A stretch of 64,000 nucleotides of DNA from Arsenicicoccus dermatophilus (GTDB taxonomy: Bacteria; Actinomycetota; Actinomycetes; Actinomycetales; Dermatophilaceae): assembly GCF_022568795.1 (NCBI RefSeq), contig NZ_JAKZHU010000001.1, positions 992,001-1,056,000 on the forward strand. The letters run 5' to 3'. This document shows positions 37,018 to 51,640 of this stretch, one piece after another. A model generated the notes under the pieces. The model was not told the origin of the DNA. It did no database searches and saw only the letters and a program-made list of their open reading frames with translations. Numbering within the stretch: position 1 is the stretch's first letter; every line of letters begins with the position of its first letter. Made by a program: the position numbers and the translations under genes.

Positions 37018-38419
37018 GGTCAAGTCCCGTGGGGTGGTGTTGTTTCAGGTGGTGATGGCGGTTGGGATGTTCTCGGTGGTGAGCGTGTAGAGCAGTCGTC
37101 GCATGCTGGTGTCTGACAGGTAGCGGCGTTCGCCGTACTGCCATTCCTCGTGCTGCTCGAGGAGGACGGCGCCGACGAGGCGGGTGACGCTGTCGCGGTT
37201 GGGGAAGACCTGGACGACGTCGGCGCGGCGTTTGATCTCGCCGTTGCAGCGTTCGACGGGGTTGTTCGACCAGATCTTCTTCCAGTGCTCGGTGGGGAAC
37301 GCGGCGAACGCGGTCAGGTCGGCCTCGGCGTCGGCGAGCATGGCCGCGAGCTGGGGGAAGGAGGCCTGCAGGGACGCGGTGACCTGGTGATAGGTCTCCC
37401 GGACGGCCTCGGGGCTGGTCTGGGCGAAGATCGTGCTGACCAGGGCGTTAACAGGCTTGGACCGGGCGGACCCGAGGACCTGGGTGATGTTGCGGGCGAA
37501 GTGGACCCGGCAGCGTTGCCACGCGGCGCCGGGCAGCACGGCCTTGACCGCGGCCTTCAGCCCGGCGTGGGCGTCGCTGATGACCAGGGCCACGCCCTGG
37601 GGGTGGGCCGGTGTGGAGGGCGTCAGGCCGCGGGTGCGCAGGGATCGTAGGAACTCGGTCCAGAAGTCGGTGGACTCGCTGTCGCCGATGGCCATGCCGA
37701 GGATCTCGCGGCGCCCGGCGGCGGAGACCGCGATCGCGGTGACCACGGCCTGGGAGACGACCCGGCCGCCGTGACGGACGTCCAGATAGGTCGCGTCGAG
37801 GTACAGGTACGGGAACCACGTGTGGTCCAGGGACCGGGTCAGGAAGGCGTGGACGGAGTCGTCGATGTCGGCGCAGATCCGGGACACGGTCGACCTGCTG
37901 ATGCCGGTGTCGTTGCCCAGGGCCTTGACCAGGTCGTCGACCTTACGGGTGGAGACCCCGTCGATCCATGCGGTGCAGATCACGGCGTACAGGGCCTTGT
38001 CGACGCGTCGGCGTGGGTGCAGCAGGGAGGGGAAGAACGAGCCCTCGCGCAGCTTGGGGATGGCCAGGGTCAGCTCCCCGGCCGGGGTCGCCACGGTCTT
38101 GGGGCGGGTGCCGTTGCGGCGGGTCGTGCGATCTGGGGTCCGCTCGTAGCGGCCGGCGCCGATCTTGGCGGTAGCCTCGGCGTCGACGAGGTCTTGCAAC
38201 CCGGCCTGCAGCAGCCGGCGGAACACGTCGTCGCGGGCCAGGTCAGGATCGGCGAGGAGTTCACCGACGAGCGCGGACAGGGCAGACTGGGGACGGGTCA
38301 TCGCGGGTCCTTGGAGTTCTTGGCGGAATCCTGGAAGTACCCGCGATGACCCCCCTGAACAGCAGCAGCACCATCGCGGCGACCAGCGCGGGAATGCCAC
38401 CACGCTATGGGACGCACCC
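37018..38419 (-). mobile_element. IS256-family insertion sequence, about 1.4 kb
   Basis: The element holds one transposase gene, is flanked by an 8-9-bp direct repeat, and has imperfect terminal inverted repeats. About 22 positions starting GGGT...GTCCC at 37017 match 17 positions of the complement of the sequence ending ...GGGACGCACCC at 38419. An inner repeat pair (37044-37061 and 38341-38359) is also similar. The exact end is uncertain by 1-2 G residues shared with the target. The target repeats are intact and the host frame is restorable, indicating a fairly recent insertion. Confidence 0.88.
37045..38301 (-). CDS. IS256-family transposase (Mutator type)
   Basis: The 418-residue DDE transposase has the family pattern: an N-terminal helical DNA-binding region, LREGSFFPSLLHPRRRVDKAL, DGVSTRKVDDLVKALG, then catalytic Asp in YLYLDATYLDVRHGG, Asp in VISDAHAGLKAAV and Glu in NNPVERCNGEIKRR. 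It appears complete. ATG 38301 has AAGGA at 7-8 nt; a longer frame to 38448 would start outside the element. It is transcribed opposite to the interrupted gene. Confidence 0.95.
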   Translation of the reverse strand: MTRPQSALSALVGELLADPDLARDDVFRRLLQAGLQDLVDAEATAKIGAGRYERTPDRTTRRNGTRPKTVATPAGELTLAIPKLREGSFFPSLLHPRRRVDKALYAVICTAWIDGVSTRKVDDLVKALGNDTGISRSTVSRICADIDDSVHAFLTRSLDHTWFPYLYLDATYLDVRHGGRVVSQAVVTAIAVSAAGRREILGMAIGDSESTDFWTEFLRSLRTRGLTPSTPAHPQGVALVISDAHAGLKAAVKAVLPGAAWQRCRVHFARNITQVLGSARSKPVNALVSTIFAQTSPEAVRETYHQVTASLQASFPQLAAMLADAEADLTAFAAFPTEHWKKIWSNNPVERCNGEIKRRADVVQVFPNRDSVTRLVGAVLLEQHEEWQYGERRYLSDTSMRRLLYTLTTENIPTAITT

Positions 38420-38427
38420 TGTGGCGG
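38420..38427 (+). repeat. Right target-site duplication of the IS256-family element
   Basis: This is the second copy of TGTGGCGG (see 37010-37017). The following G continues the match for one base. Confidence 0.8.
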
Positions 38428-38762
38428 GCACGCCGCAGCCTCGTGCACCTGCTGACCGCGCCGTGGGCGCAGTCCCGCACCGTGGTCGGACTACCCCTCG
38501 GTCCCGGAGCGGATGCGGTGCTCGTGATGGTGGGGGAGCAGCCCACCTGGATCGTCGAGGTGGCCGGTCGCCCGCCACGCCAGGCGGTGCTGCAGGTGCG
38601 TGGCGAGCTGACCGAGGGGGTCGAATCGAGCTGCGCAGCCCGCGAGGCACCTGGGTGGCCACCTCGCCCGTCGCGCGGGTGGATCGCGCGGCGCTGGCGG
38701 ATCTGCTCGACGAGGTGGCCGGGGAGACCCCGCCCTGGGGTCGCGGCGACGACGCGCGGTGA
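38428..38762 (+). pseudogene. Membrane protein gene, 3' part after the IS, with a second frameshift
   Basis: This continues the gene begun at 35842 in the same frame (ARRSLVHLLTAPWAQSRTVV ... PTWIVEVAGRPPRQAVL). The frame then shifts at the GGGGG run 38616-38620: after ELTEG the family-like sequence goes on one frame over (GRIELRSPRGTWVATSPVAR ... to the TGA at 38760). One added G restores a C-terminal segment of about 111 residues and a total of about 503. The segment is soluble, with beta-strand-like alternation. ATG 38407 upstream lies inside the IS end and is probably not a real start. Confidence 0.65.
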
Positions 38763-43440: not shown

Positions 43441-45101
<1,661 letters not shown>

Positions 45102-45148
45102 GGGCTCATCCTCGCAAGCCGGCCGGGCTGCTGCACCTCGCAGGCCGG

Positions 45149-45237
45149 GCCGACCGCCGCCGACGAGCAGGTATGGCGGTCGGCTCGGTCTGTCACTACC
45201 ATGCCTTAGCCCGCTGACCTGCATCGATGTAGCGCAG
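45149..45237 (+). promoter_or_regulatory. Inverted repeats upstream of the permease gene
   Basis: Two structures sit in the divergent pgm/permease gap. One is a 10-bp perfect inverted repeat GCCGACCGCC/GGCGGTCGGC (45149-45158 with 45175-45184, 16-nt spacer). The other is a 24-nt near-palindrome (45214-45237) centred on CATCGATG, with 9 of 12 base pairs symmetric and outer CTG/CAG arms. The second lies about 42 nt before the permease start and looks like a repressor site. Confidence 0.45.
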
Positions 45238-45278
45238 GGTAGGGCAGCAGTGACTCCCCGCTCGTGGAAGGCCTCCCC

Positions 45279-46253
45279 GTGGACCTGTCAGCCCTCCGCC
45301 GCAGCCCCCTGGCTCCGGCGTTGCTCCTGCTGGGGGTCCTCGCGGCCCTGGCGATGTGGTCCCGAGCGCCGGTCGCCGGGGCGGTGGCCGACCACCCCGC
45401 CCTCCAGGCCTGGCTGACGACGATGCTGTCCATGTCGGTGCAGGCCCTGCCCTTCCTGGTGCTGGGGGTGCTGCTGTCGTCGGCCATCAGCGTCCTCGTG
45501 CCGCCGCGGCTGCTGGAGCGCGCGCTGCCCGCCAACCCGGTGGCGGCCGTCCCCGTGGCCGGCACCGCAGGCATCCTGCTCCCCGGCTGCGAGTGCGCCT
45601 CGGTGCCGGTGAGCTCGGCCCTCATGCGCAGCGGGGTCGCCCCCGCCGTGGCCCTGACCTTCCAGCTGGCGGCGCCTGCGGTCAACCCGGTCGTCCTCGC
45701 GTCGACCGCGGTGGCCTTCGGCGGCAGCTGGACCATGGTCACGGCGCGGTTCCTCGCGTCCTGGCTGACGGCCGTGGTCGTGGGGCTGGTCTGGATCAAG
45801 CTCGGCAAGGACCACGTGCCCGCGATCCGCGCGCGGCACGAGCACGAGCACGGACGCTGGCGGGCGCTCATGGACGAGCTGTCGCACGACGTGCTGCAGG
45901 CCGGCGGCTACCTGGTCGTCGGCGCGACGATCGCCGCTACCCTCAACGTCGTCGTGCCGACCGAGTGGGTCGGCACCGTCGCCGGCAACCCGGTGCTGTC
46001 GGTGCTGGCCCTGGCGCTGCTTGCGATGATCGTCGCCGTCTGCTCGGAGGCCGATGCCTTCGTGGCGGCCGGCCTCTCGGCCTTCTCGCCGCTGGCTCAG
46101 CTCGTCTTCATGGTCGTGGGGCCGGTCGTCGACATCAAGCTCATCGCCATGCAGGTCGGGACCTACGGCAAGAAGTTCGCGCTCGTCTTCGTCCCCCTCA
46201 CCCTCGTCGTCGCGCTCAACTGCGCCAACTGGATCGGAACCCTGCTGCTGTGA
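45279..46253 (+). CDS. Permease of the PF03773 (ArsP_1/DUF318) family
   Basis: A 324-residue protein with about eight membrane helices. The family core includes [35 protein letters not shown] (conserved Cys-Glu-Cys), [25 protein letters not shown] and GPVVDIKL. A cytoplasmic loop carries [11 protein letters not shown], a His-rich potential metal site. The substrate is unknown; metal ions or organoarsenicals are proposed for relatives. GTG 45279 has GGAAGG at 7 nt; GTG 45264 lacks a site. It overlaps the next gene by 4 nt. Confidence 0.88.
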
Positions 46254-46930
46254 AGCGTCCTGTGCAAGCCGCCCTGCTGCTGGCCGTCGCGGTGACGACG
46301 GCGGGCATCATCCTCAACGGCACCTACCTCAACCTCGTCCGGCCGACGATGCGCTGGCCGCTGCTCGCGACCGCCGCCGTCCTCGCCGCGTGCGGGGTGA
46401 CGCTGCTGCTGGCCCGGCGCGACGAGCACGAGCACGACCACCGCGCCTCGCGCATGGGGATCGCCCTGGCCCTGCCCTTCGTGGCGATGGCGGTCGTGCC
46501 GATCAACCCGCTGACCTCGTGGTCGGCCGACCGCTCCCAGGTCGACATGGGCGGGGACCCCTCGGGCAGCTTCGACCCGCTGCCCGACGACGAGGTCCTC
46601 ACGATGAACGTGTCGGACTTCGTGGACCGGGCGACCTTCGACAGCCAGTCCTCCCTCACGGGCCGCAAGGTGCGGCTCGTGGGCTTCGTCTCCCCGGACG
46701 GCGACGGGTGGGCGGTGACCCGCATCCGGGTCAAGTGCTGCGCAGCCGACGCCCGGCCGTTCAAGGTGGGCGTCGTCGGGGTCCCGGCCCCGCCGAAGGA
46801 CTCGTGGGTCGAGGCCGTCGGCACCTGGGTCGCCCGCCCGCCCTACTCCGGTGAGGGCCGGGTGACCTGGCCGCAGCTGCGGGACGCGGTGGTCAGGTCG
46901 GTGCCGGCGGAGCCCAACCCCTACGAGTGA
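46250..46930 (+). CDS. TIGR03943-family protein (YcgQ-like), permease partner
   Basis: A 226-residue protein with two N-terminal helices, a His-rich linker (RRDEHEHDHRASR), a third helix, and a C-terminal extracytoplasmic domain with VRLVGFVSPDGDGWAVTRIRVKCCAADARP (conserved CC). Homologues pair with PF03773 permeases as two-gene operons; the function is unproven but probably metal-related. The GTG start overlaps the permease stop (GTGA). Confidence 0.85.
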   Translation: MKRPVQAALLLAVAVTTAGIILNGTYLNLVRPTMRWPLLATAAVLAACGVTLLLARRDEHEHDHRASRMGIALALPFVAMAVVPINPLTSWSADRSQVDMGGDPSGSFDPLPDDEVLTMNVSDFVDRATFDSQSSLTGRKVRLVGFVSPDGDGWAVTRIRVKCCAADARPFKVGVVGVPAPPKDSWVEAVGTWVARPPYSGEGRVTWPQLRDAVVRSVPAEPNPYE

Positions 46931-46974
46931 CGGCCTCCCGGCTCCGGGGCGCATCCCGACCCGGCGGTACGACA

Positions 46975-47023
46975 ACAGGCCCCGTGCCCGGCCCCCCTGC
47001 AGGGAGGCGGGCACGGGGCCTGT
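46975..47023. terminator. Bidirectional terminator between permease operon and alpha-glucan operon
   Basis: A 16-bp perfect stem (46975-46990 with 47008-47023) has a 17-nt loop that is itself partly self-complementary. It lies between two convergent units. Confidence 0.75.
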
Positions 47024-47041
47024 CGCACCAGGACCGGTCGG

Positions 47042-50000
47042 TCAGCCCTCGGCGGACGTCTCGCTCAGCTCGGGCCGCTCGGCGGCGTCGGCCGCCTCCC
47101 GGGCCTCCGCCGCGCGCTGGGCCTCGGCCGCGGCGACGAGCTCGGGGCGCTCCTGGGCCCGGGACGCCTCGTGGTGACGCTCGACGTCCTCCTCGGCGGC
47201 GAGCCACACCGTGGCGAGCGGCGGGCAGGTGATCACCGCGGACCACGCGAAGCCGTGCCACGGGACCGGCTCGGCGACGACCTGGCCGAGGTTGCCGACC
47301 CCTGAGCCGTTCCACTCGGCGGCGTCGGTGTTGAGGACCTCGCGCCAGACCCCCGGCCCGGGCAGGCCGATCCGGTAGCCCTCGTGCGGGGCACCCGCGA
47401 AGTTCGAGACGCAGGCGACGGCGGGGACCCGTCCCGAGCCGCCGTCCTTGCCGTAGCGCACGAACGAGAAGACGTTGCCCGTGGCGTCGTTCGCGTCGAT
47501 CCACTGGAAGCCCTCACCGCTGGTGTCGAGCTGCCACAGGGCGGGGGAGGCCTGGTAGGTCGCGTTCATCGACCGGACCATCTGGTGCGCGGCCCGGTGC
47601 CAGGGCTGGTCGAGGAGCCACCAGTCCAGCGAGCTGCCGTCGGCCCACTCGGCCTCCTGCGCGAACTCCTGACCCATGAACAGGAGCTTCTTGCCGGGGT
47701 GCGCCCACATGAAGGCGAGGTAGGCCCGCAGGTTGGCGAGCTGCTGCCAGCGGTCGCCTGGCATCTTGCGCAGCAGCGAGCCCTTGCCGTAGACGACCTC
47801 GTCGTGGGAGATCGGCAGCACGAAGCTCTCGCTGAACGCGTAGACGAGCCCGAAGGTCATCTCGCCGTGGTGGTACTGCCGGTGGATCGGGTCGTGCTCG
47901 ACGTAGTCGAGGGTGTCGTGCATCCAGCCCATGTTCCACTTGAAGCCGAAGCCCAGACCGCCCGCCTCGGTGGGGCGGGTGACGCCCGGCCAGGAGGTGG
48001 ACTCCTCGGCGATCATCATGGCGCCGGGGTGGCGGCGGTAGACGGTCGCGTTGGTCTCCTGGAGCATCTGCACGGCCTCGAGGTGCTCCCGCCCGCCATA
48101 CACGTTGGGCAGCCACTCGCCGTCCTTGCGGGAGTAGTCGAGGTAGAGCATCGAGGCGACGGCGTCCACGCGCAGGCCGTCCACGTGGAACTCCTCGAGC
48201 CAGAACAGCGCGTTGGCGACGAGGAAGTTGCGGACCTGCGGCCGGCCGAAGTCGAAGACGTGCGTGCCCCAGTCGGGCTGGTCGCCGCGGCGCGGGTCGG
48301 GGTGCTCGTAGACCGCCTCCCCGTCGAACCGCGCGAGCGCGAACGCGTCCTTGGGGAAGTGGGCGGGCACCCAGTCGAGGATGACGCCGATCCCGGCCTG
48401 GTGCAGGGCGTCGACGAGGTGACGGAACTCGTCGGGCGAGCCGAACCGCGACGTCGGGGCGTAGTAGCCGGTCACCTGGTAGCCCCACGAGGGGCCGTAG
48501 GGGTGCTCGGCGACGGGCAGCAGCTCGACGTGCGTGAACCCGAGGTCCTTGACGTAGTCGACCAGCTGGGTGGCCAGCTCGGTGTAGCTCAGTCCCTGTC
48601 GCCAGGAGCCGAGGTGCACCTCGTAGACCGACATGGGGGCCTCGTGGCGCGAGGTGGCGTCCCGCTCGGCGATCCACTCCTGGTCGTGCCAGGTGTACGA
48701 CGAGCGCTCGACGACCGACGCGGTGGCGGGCGGGATCTCGGTGGCCCGGGCCAGCGGGTCGGCCTTGCCGCGCCACTGGCCGTCCTTGCCGAGGATGTCG
48801 TACTTGTAGCGGATGCCCTCCTCGACGCCGGGGACGAACAGCTCCCACAGGCCGGACGAGCCGAGCGAGCGCATCGGGTGCGCCTGGGAGTCCCAGGTGT
48901 TGAAGTCGCCGGCCAGGCGCACGGCCTGGGCGTTGGGGGCCCACACCGCGAAGGCCGTGCCCCGGGTGACGCCCATCGGCCCGTCGTACTCGCGCACGTG
49001 CGCGCCGAGGACCTCCCACAGCCGCTCGTGGCGCCCCTCGCCGATGAGGTGGATGTCCATCTCGCCGAGCGTGGGCAGGAACCGGTAGGGATCGTCGATG
49101 GTGTGCTTGAAGCCGTCGCCGTAGTCCACCGCCACGCGGTAGTCGGGGACGTCGGTGCCCTCGATCGTGGCGACCCAGACGCCCTCGTGCTCGTGCGCGA
49201 AGGGGACCGTGCGGCCGCCCTCGAGGAGGAGGTCCACCGTCGCGGCCCGCGGCTTGAAGGTGCGGATGGTGACCAGGCCATCGCCGACGCGGCCGCCGAG
49301 GACCGAGTGGGGGTCGTGGTGGTGGCCGTGGACCAGCCGGTTGATCTGGTCGGTGGGCACGGGCAGGTGGCGGGCGGCGCCCTCCGGCTGCCGGCCGTCG
49401 GTGGCCGGGTCCTGCTCCTGGTCGTACGCCGGGGAGGCGGGCTCCGGGTTCGCGCCGTCCGTCGCCGGCCTCGGGGTCGGCTCCAGGGGTGCCGTGGTCT
49501 CGTCGGCCATCAGGGTCTCCTCGGTCAGGTCCGGTGTGGGCTCCTCGACGGCAGGCGCGCCGGCCGTGGCCTCGACGGCGGCGACCGGCTCGGGAGCAGG
49601 CTCGGGCGTCTCGACGGCGGAGCCCTGGACCTCGGCAGGCTCGTCGATCTGTGCCGGTGCCGGTGCCGGTCGTGCGTCGGTCGTCGGGGCGTCCTCGGCC
49701 AGGTCCGGCCCGTGGTTCTCGGCCGCCGGTGCGACGGGCGTCGGGTCGGTGCCGGCGACCGGATCGGTGGCGCGGGCGTCCTCGGAGGGACGGTCGTGAC
49801 CGCCGGCCGGGACCGGACCGGACGCTGCGACGGGCTGCACGGTGCCGGTGGTCGCGGTCCTCGCGACGGTCCGCGCCACGAAGCGGGCGGTCGAGCCCAG
49901 CTGGGCCGCGATCCCGGACACCGCGGCGCTGACCGGCGCGTGGCGGACCCGACGAGACGCACCGGCGGTGGTCGCGTCGGCGGTGTCGTCCTCGGGGGCC

Positions 50001-51640
50001 GCCGGGGCGGGTGTCTCGGGCTCGGAGGCGGCCGGGGCGGCGGCCTCATCCTGGACCGTCGCGGCCGGTGCGGTCGGGGGCTCCTCCTCGGAGGCCGCCG
50101 GGGCGGGTGTCTCGGGCGTGGTCCGCGCCGCCAGGGCCGGCGCCTTCTCCTCGACCGGGACCGTGGCAGCCTCGTCCTCAGGGGTCTGGGGGAGGCGGTG
50201 CTCCTGCTGCCCCGTGGTGTCTCCCGTCGCAGCGGTCACGAGCCGGGTGACGGCGCTGGTGGGGATGGGCAGCCACGACGGGCGGTTGCGCGCCTCGTAG
50301 TCGATCTCGTACAGCGCCTTGTCGAGCTCCAACGCGCGCAGCACCTCCGGCTCGCGGCGCGGGTCGACGCCGGTCGCCTCGGCATACCCGGCCACGAAAG
50401 CCGCCCGGGCGGCCTCGGCCCAGGCGCGGGCGGCCTCGGCGCGGGACGGATCCTCCTGTGCCACCGACCCGGCGGCATAGTCGAAGGACCGCAGCATGCC
50501 GGCGACGTCGCGCAGCACCAGGTCGGGACGGGTCCGCTGCCGCAGCGGCCGCAGCGGCTCCCCCTCGAAGTCGAGCAGCACCCAGCCGCGGCCGGGGACG
50601 TCGAGGACCTGGCCTAGGTGGTAGTCGCCGTGGATGCGCTGCAACCGGGGCCACTCGGCGTCGCGGGCCGCGCCGAGCACCCGCTCGATCTCGGGCTCCT
50701 GGGCGCGCAGCGGCGGGTGCGCCTCCGCGGCGAGCACGAAGCGGTTGCGCATGGACAGCGCCAGCGTCCTGCGGTCCTCGGCCGTGGCTACGGCCGTCTC
50801 CATGGTGTCGGCCAGGGTGCGGTGGACCTCCCCGGTGGCAACGCCGAGGGCGCGGGCACGCTCGGTGAAGTCGCCTCCGGTGGAGGCGGACTCGAGGGCC
50901 ACCCGCCAGGCGTCGCGCACGTCGGGCAGGAACTCCTGGGCGAAGGCCAGGTGCCCCGAGACCTGGCGGCCGTCCCGGGTCCACCGGCCGCGCAGCGCGC
51001 CGGCGGGGCTGGGCACCAGCGTCGAGCCGGCGGCCGCCAGGGCGGTCTGGACGGTCACGTCCGGGTTGTCGCCGGGGGACAGGATCCGGAAGACCTTGAC
51101 GATCAAGGGTTTCCCGTCGGTCTCCACGATGATCGAGGTGTTGGACTGCTCGCCGGACAGGACCCGCGCGGAGCGGACCGTCATCGGCGAGCAGGCATCC
51201 GTCGGCTCCCCGGTGACGTGCACGTCGGGGGTGCCGTGGTCCGGGGTCGAGCCGGTGTCCGACTCCACGATGGTGCGGACCAGCTCGGCGACGTAGACCG
51301 GGTCGTGGGTGGCGTCGTAGACATGGCGGGTGCCGAGCACGGAGTGCTCCACCACGCCGACCAGCGCGTGGTCTGCCCCCTCGAGCGGTGCCCCGCGATA
51401 GGTCAGCGGGACCTGGTAGGTCACCGGCGGCTGCACCGAGACGTCCCGCAGCAGCAGGGTCTCGATGCCCACCTCGTGGGCGGGGTCCTCGAAGCGATAG
51501 CTGCCGACGCGCTCGAGCCGCGGTGCCACGCCCGAGCCCTTTCCGACATACCACCGCTGCCGTCCGATCCACGCCTGGACGGTCTCGCGCTTGTCGGGCG
51601 TGATCGTCGCGCCCTTCTCGATCCGGGAGGTGCCGGCCAT
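47042..51640 (-). CDS. glgB: Maltokinase-alpha-1,4-glucan branching enzyme fusion
   Basis: One 1532-codon frame encodes two enzymes. Residues 1-470 are maltokinase (cap domain [17 protein letters not shown]; kinase motif [12 protein letters not shown] near 336; LLDFEGEP), which makes maltose 1-phosphate for GlgE. Residues 470-760 are an Ala/Pro/Glu-rich linker. From 770 on is GH13 branching enzyme, with nucleophile in [14 protein letters not shown] (Asp about 1159), acid in MIAEEST and ISHDEV; a charged Ala-rich tail follows. An internal ATG at 49510 (residue 711) has GAGGAG at 6 nt, so a separate 822-residue GlgB may also be made. The start is 1 nt after the treS stop. Confidence 0.93.

Follow-up and report, generated by a model that had tools for sequence, protein, structure and literature searches.

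With a confidence slightly better than even, the two overlapping genes described here are read as an accessory, ATP-independent (secondary) transporter of divalent metal, most likely zinc, which could work in either direction, uptake or salvage being only slightly favoured over the other direction. They lie in a stretch of 64,000 nucleotides of the Arsenicicoccus dermatophilus genome (the window; positions are counted from its first letter). A metal-linked two-component transporter had been predicted from the window alone, and this part of the original prediction is supported and narrowed to zinc, because of the gene neighbourhood of relatives and because, in the passages cited from PMC6336718, the upstream region of BAS1632, an operon of Bacillus anthracis with a related permease, is bound by Zur. 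Several phyla, with pathogens among their members, have such pairs, to which the cited passages of the papers discussed below assign no substrate; neighbourhood and predicted fold point to zinc as the substrate, to residues that may form the metal site, and to what the partner protein may do.

Genes and genomic context

Both genes lie on the + strand and were confirmed as real:

45279..46253, + strand: PF03773 (ArsP_1) permease, 324 aa from GTG 45279 (329 aa from GTG 45264)
46250..46930, + strand: TIGR03943 permease partner, 226 aa, with its start inside the permease stop

The overlap of stop and start is 4 nt, and the HEHEH, HEHDH and Cys-Glu-Cys motifs originally noticed in the two products are all present. 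GTG 45279 is more likely than GTG 45264 to be the permease start, because GGAAGG (45266-45271) stands 7 nt upstream of it. The permease ORF (45264-46253) scores 171.3 bits against PF03773 ArsP_1 (Pfam gathering cut-off 32.3) and the partner ORF (46250-46930) 106.3 bits against TIGR03943 (NCBIfam cut-off 88.8), which makes each a member of its family; the adjacent PF03773-type permease that belongs to the definition of TIGR03943 is present in the form of the 4-nt overlap.

The pair is placed between glgB, identified in the window by Pfam, and pgm, in the order glgB, pair, pgm. On the - strand, 47042-51640 holds a 1532-aa ORF in which a maltokinase cap domain is fused to GlgB domains, and long ORFs akin to it adjoin the pair in two other loci, L118 (1568 aa) and L119 (1236 aa). 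A Mutator-family transposase (37045-38448, - strand, 414 bits) lies about 7 kb from the pair, and no called ORF in loci L121-L124 matched it. Between pgm and the permease, an 18-nt inverted repeat at 45141-45192 (89% complementary, 16-nt gap) is longer than the palindrome reported originally; no terminator-like site was found at it. Neither a sigma-70-like promoter nor an intrinsic terminator was found in 45050-47100, and the search for RNA elements at the locus gave nothing better than two weak matches to miRNA families, at E 0.44 and E 0.79, both far short of their gathering scores.

The permease

Three short motifs mark the permease, numbered here from GTG 45279:

45585..45599, + strand: GCECA motif, residues 103-107, at the break of the discontinuous helix of repeat 1
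45837..45851, + strand: HEHEH, residues 187-191, in the loop joining the two repeats
46041..46055, + strand: CSEAD motif, residues 255-259, at the equivalent position in repeat 2

GCECAS and CSEADAF show no variation across all 50 aligned permeases, a count that is partly built into the sample, most of these permeases having been retrieved by the peptide patterns LPGCECAS or VA[VI]CSEAD, so that every row carries at least one motif by construction. GCEC and CSEAD are equally invariant in the seven permeases obtained by a whole-protein search of the family (7/7), a set from which the degraded copy of G100 was set aside. The conservation originally claimed for Cys-Glu-Cys stands. When the two halves of the alignment were compared by hhalign, they matched at P 1.7e-6 with CECAS paired to CSEAD; the permease is an internal duplication with one motif per copy. 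The histidine cluster fares differently: HxH or HH occurs in 17 of the 50 inter-repeat loops, that of the window included, and judged by this alignment it is hardly a family trait. Charge is what places this loop, provisionally, on the cytoplasmic side.

In the AlphaFold2 model (pLDDT 88.8) helices are broken at 98-104 and 253-255, coinciding with the two motifs, and the two features by which an elevator-type carrier is recognised, sequence repeats and broken helices, are thus both present, the repeats by hhalign and the breaks in a predicted model. Foldseek gave the model no match at E 0.001 or below, the best being a nucleoside transporter at E 0.069. When the Foldseek candidates were passed to VIA-align, 47 entries were obtained at Z 7.4-13.4, followed by a drop to Z 4.2, in a method by which helical models can reach Z near 13 by chance; the best match was ArsB 10tp (Z 13.4, rmsd 4.9, 271 residues). 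We take 46 of the 47 to be elevator-type carriers, of the ArsB, NaS/INDY (DASS), Pho90, CNT, TRAP QM and AbgT types, 9a59_A being left unplaced, and so uniform a list argues against chance as the explanation of the Z scores. The permease is predicted, on its model, to resemble elevator-type carriers (ArsB, DASS, CNT, TRAP). Sequence searches for solved homologues returned none that was usable (an unrelated match at E 0.31, another at E 0.45, and nothing in the other searches).

The partner

Two motifs are of interest in the partner:

46427..46441, + strand: HEHDH, residues 60-64, in the loop after the second helix
46736..46750, + strand: CCAAD, residues 163-167, in the OB-fold domain

The AlphaFold2 model (pLDDT 86.3) and the predicted helices (3-23, 32-54 and 68-82) place an OB-fold domain after the third helix. 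Residues 112-224 form this predicted OB fold, which carries the Cys-Cys and matches Ten1 4joi (Z 8.5, rmsd 3.5, 94 residues). Among 50 aligned partners, all of which, the window's included, match TIGR03943 at E of 0.001 or below, C163, C164, A166 and D167 are invariant and A165 nearly so. HxH or HH is present in 41 of the 50 partner loops, again including the window's, with up to 14 His. The histidine clusters predicted for both genes are thus upheld in part: in the aligned sequences the His-rich loop of the partner appears as a solid family trait, and it is the only one of the two that does.

The side of the membrane on which this loop lies can be approached through its charge, and the evidence is mixed, the mean number of Arg and Lys in the partners being 4.1 in the His loop, 2.4 in the preceding loop and 1.4 at the N-terminus; a cytoplasmic position for the loop is plausible. 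Each of the two alignments, of permeases and of partners, holds 49 relatives chosen by hand from 75 listed.

The upstream palindrome

The original prediction saw the pair under a palindromic operator, situated as follows:

45214..45237, no strand: imperfect palindrome with CATCGATG at its centre, 9 of its 12 arm pairs matching, judged to be no operator

The sequence, CTGACCTGCATCGATGTAGCGCAG, is 24 bp long and lies 27-50 nt upstream of GTG 45264. Nine pairs in twelve is nothing unusual: the window has 118 centres that pair at least as well, 20 of which, counting this one, are intergenic. From base or dinucleotide composition the window would be expected to contain CATCGATG 0.4-1.0 times, and it occurs once. 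It was found upstream of the permease in none of the 83 other pair loci, so that the window's own copy is the only one in 84, and the pgm flank of four genomes of the same genus, from which the permease is missing too, does not contain it. Its 12-base core, allowing at most one mismatch, recurs at one other site in the 3.5-Mb genome. With no Zur box at this place either, the palindrome was rejected as an operator; it looks like chance and not a control switch, and it is not worth pursuing in that role.

A separate observation concerns one clade of Streptomyces, in which a 19-nt inverted repeat, TATGTTCGATCCGAACATC, is placed near the permease start (loci L083, L025, L087, L017, L074, L026 and L070). 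Within 3 mismatches it is found in 7 of the 31 clade members, three of which supplied the query sequence and match by construction, in none of the 53 other pair loci, and in none of 928 control upstream regions. This repeat is a candidate operator, and a better one than the CATCGATG palindrome.

Zur in this genome

The genome holds one Fur-family gene, which clusters with genes for ZnuA, an ABC-3 permease of the ZnuB type, a CobW_C protein of the COG0523 type and the ribosomal proteins L28, L32, L33, S14 and L31. The znuABC genes, COG0523 and these ribosomal paralogues are classes of the Zur regulon in the cited part of PMC6103462. A Zur-type pattern occurs at 15 genome sites, compared with 3 for a control pattern; nine of the 15 were taken as genuine, having been picked by eye for their AT-rich flanks, and they resemble the 21-bp motifs given in the cited part of PMC2823685. 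The zur cluster accounts for three of the nine: one precedes znuA, another stands in the interval from the CobW_C gene to L28, and the third in that from L32 to L33. Zur-like boxes are also seen outside the znu-zur cluster of this genome (L100, L102 and L111-L114).

The matrix built from the nine boxes gives them scores of 20.6-25.1 by construction. The region before the window pair (45090-45300) holds no Zur box by this matrix, its best score being -9.5, with just 6 of the 84 upstream regions ranking beneath it. Zur control of the window copy was therefore rejected, the Zur-type boxes of the genome being elsewhere, and the pair lacks the upstream box that would assign it to the Zur regulon.

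Distribution among relatives

The permease was matched in 8 of the 149 genomes of the family, a figure that counts its own genome and the partial copy of G100. Three of the eight, G128, G020 and Janibacter massiliensis (G049, L071), have the pair near recO-uppS and zur-znuB, and three more, which belong to another genus (G084, G002 and G054), have it between an LhgO-like gene and glgB; pgm is near the pair in G084 and G054, which is much like the order glgB, pair, pgm of the window. The names recO, uppS, LhgO, pgm, lipase, znuC and glgB in relatives come from reading of the sequences or from blastp to ORFs of the window. The degraded permease of G100 (L009, L120) matches residues 10-127 only, contains one in-frame TGA and reads GCEW; it lies close to recO-uppS-zur and znu genes.

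The permease is missing from four genomes of the same genus, in all of which a different ORF, presumably lipase-like to judge by eye, adjoins pgm. In a quick tree, with SH-aLRT support only and a long-branch warning, the window permease groups with its own family (SH-aLRT 86), an unsure placement given its end branch of 1.42. Loss in the sister species and gain at the pgm site are indistinguishable here.

Neighbouring genes and zinc

Because the wider sample takes the best 80 of 449 confirmed stretches, it is weighted towards closer relatives, above all Streptomyces and Lentzea. Together with 5 enlarged family loci these 80 stretches make the 85 pair loci used for neighbour counts. For upstream regions and trees, 87 loci were entered (L013-L092, the best 80 of 449, and L002-L008, with the degraded L009 left out), of which L015, L033 and L055 dropped out when the gene caller missed their permease, leaving 84; L005 is from the same genome as L071. 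Gene starts in the relatives' loci are those of the gene caller. The partner is found near the permease in 81 of the 84.

The neighbours scored were Fur, ZnuA, ZnuB, COG0523, L31, S18, L33, S14 and L28, one representative of each class being confirmed by Pfam. Genes of these zinc-type families are present in 30 of the 85 pair loci and in 2 of 40 random 14.9-kb stretches (Fisher P 1.5e-4), a test that leans towards the pair loci in that the neighbour HMMs were built from these loci themselves, many of which are close kin, and in which the control stretches come from 4 genomes of one family. Among the 73 pair loci of at least 13 kb, 24 have such a neighbour. Two or more zinc-type families occur in 17/85 pair loci, compared with 0/40 random stretches, and both of the positive random stretches carry L33. 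In 10 of the 30 zinc-type loci Fur stands alone, and 9 of these represent one Lentzea-type arrangement. When the zinc label was placed on the tree, 13 changes were needed, at least 8 of them forced by starred branches, compared with a mean of 24 for shuffled labels; 54 of the 83 tree rows have no zinc neighbour, most of them Streptomycetaceae.

A Zur-like box scoring at least 8 lies upstream of 8 of the 84 permeases, these being from Kribbella, Nocardioides and Actinocorallia; for the remaining genes of these loci the figure is 16 of 774 (P 0.0012). The B. anthracis operon adds to the choice of zinc, its permease being of the ArsP_1 superfamily and likened by its authors to SMU_747c (PMC6336718, in the part cited).

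Proposed mechanism and alternatives

On the preferred reading, the permease would be a two-repeat secondary transporter of the elevator type, as its predicted fold suggests, in which two broken helices would bring Cys104, Glu105 and Cys106 together with Cys255, Glu257 and Asp259 to form a buried metal site. The partner may hold metal in its His-rich loop and, through the invariant Cys-Cys-x-x-Asp, in the OB-fold domain, which is probably outside the membrane, and may hand it to or from the permease. In some relatives the pair is placed with zinc-starvation genes, and the window copy would be expressed without Zur or under another control. Several points weigh against this reading: most tree rows lack a zinc neighbour, no Zur box precedes the window pair, the B. 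anthracis boxes are placed as for positive regulation, SO_0444, a distant relative, has been described as an efflux protein, and the permease is missing from the four genomes of the same genus and broken in one genome of the family. A broader generalisation, in which PF03773/TIGR03943 pairs form a distinct class of elevator-type zinc transporters with a dedicated OB-fold, His-loop subunit, responding to Zur beside ZnuABC across Actinomycetota and freed from Zur in this lineage, is tentative and on the whole unlikely.

One alternative makes the pair an efflux pump for a metal or metalloid, zinc, copper or organoarsenicals, as for SO_0444 and ArsP, with which the permease shares PF03773. SO_0444, which adjoins a ZntR-like regulator, owes its description as a Cu/Zn efflux protein to the fitness of mutants and is needed under Zn and Cu stress, according to the cited part of PMC3219624, and in a review (PMC12607644, as far as cited) B. 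subtilis YcgR is put forward as a possible organic-arsenic carrier. The Zur boxes of BAS1632 lie upstream of the -35 element, which its authors read as positive regulation by Zur (PMC6336718, passages cited), and a box so placed suits export better than uptake under starvation. ArsB is moreover the top structural match, and an ArsR-type gene, confirmed for one representative, lies near 11 of the 84 loci. Against this, the permease falls far under the cut-offs of SO_0444 (NF033936, 69.5 of 300 bits) and of the efflux transporter SaoE (NF040736, 57.2 of 325), and the zinc neighbours identified, among the families scored, are of the starvation type; we regard efflux as rather doubtful.

The pair might instead provide extracytoplasmic proteins, or the envelope, with metal or some other ligand, apart from cytoplasmic balance. 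Such a role would suit a partner whose conserved domain is probably outside the membrane, and it would agree with the stress and envelope ECF sigma factors that control the genes in B. subtilis and with the phenotypes of S. mutans and group A Streptococcus, which concern acid stress, biofilm and fitness in vivo (PMC5584981, in the passages cited). It sits poorly with znuA/B, zur and Zur-type ribosomal-protein genes as neighbours in several lineages, and is considered improbable. Control of the pair by a metalloregulator bound to the CATCGATG palindrome is very hard to credit: the rarity of its core and its position upstream of the permease are set against the many equal centres in the window and its absence both from the other loci and from the pgm flank of the same-genus genomes, which lack the permease as well.

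Comparison with known systems

ArsP, the methylarsenite efflux permease, is the namesake of PF03773, the family to which the window permease belongs. The elevator-type carriers make up 46 of the 47 structural matches listed for the permease model at Z 7.4 or more; the permease differs in having no sequence match to a solved structure. SO_0444 is a distant profile relative, outside whose family (NF033936) the permease falls by its score. The BAS1632 operon has Zur boxes, whereas none was found at the window pair.

The closest resemblance in organisation is to YcgR/YcgQ of B. subtilis, ScfA/ScfB of group A Streptococcus and SMU.746/SMU.747 of S. mutans, in each of which a permease adjoins its partner as here (PMC5584981, passages cited). 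The window pair is likened to these by description and differs from them in being actinobacterial and in its glgB-pgm context. The cited passages of these papers assign no transport activity to the YcgR/YcgQ type of pair, and a search under the bare term TIGR03943 found no paper. The pair and its link to zinc in Bacillus are already known; what is added here, without a claim of being unpublished, is the actinobacterial neighbourhood, the internal repeat of the permease and the predicted fold.
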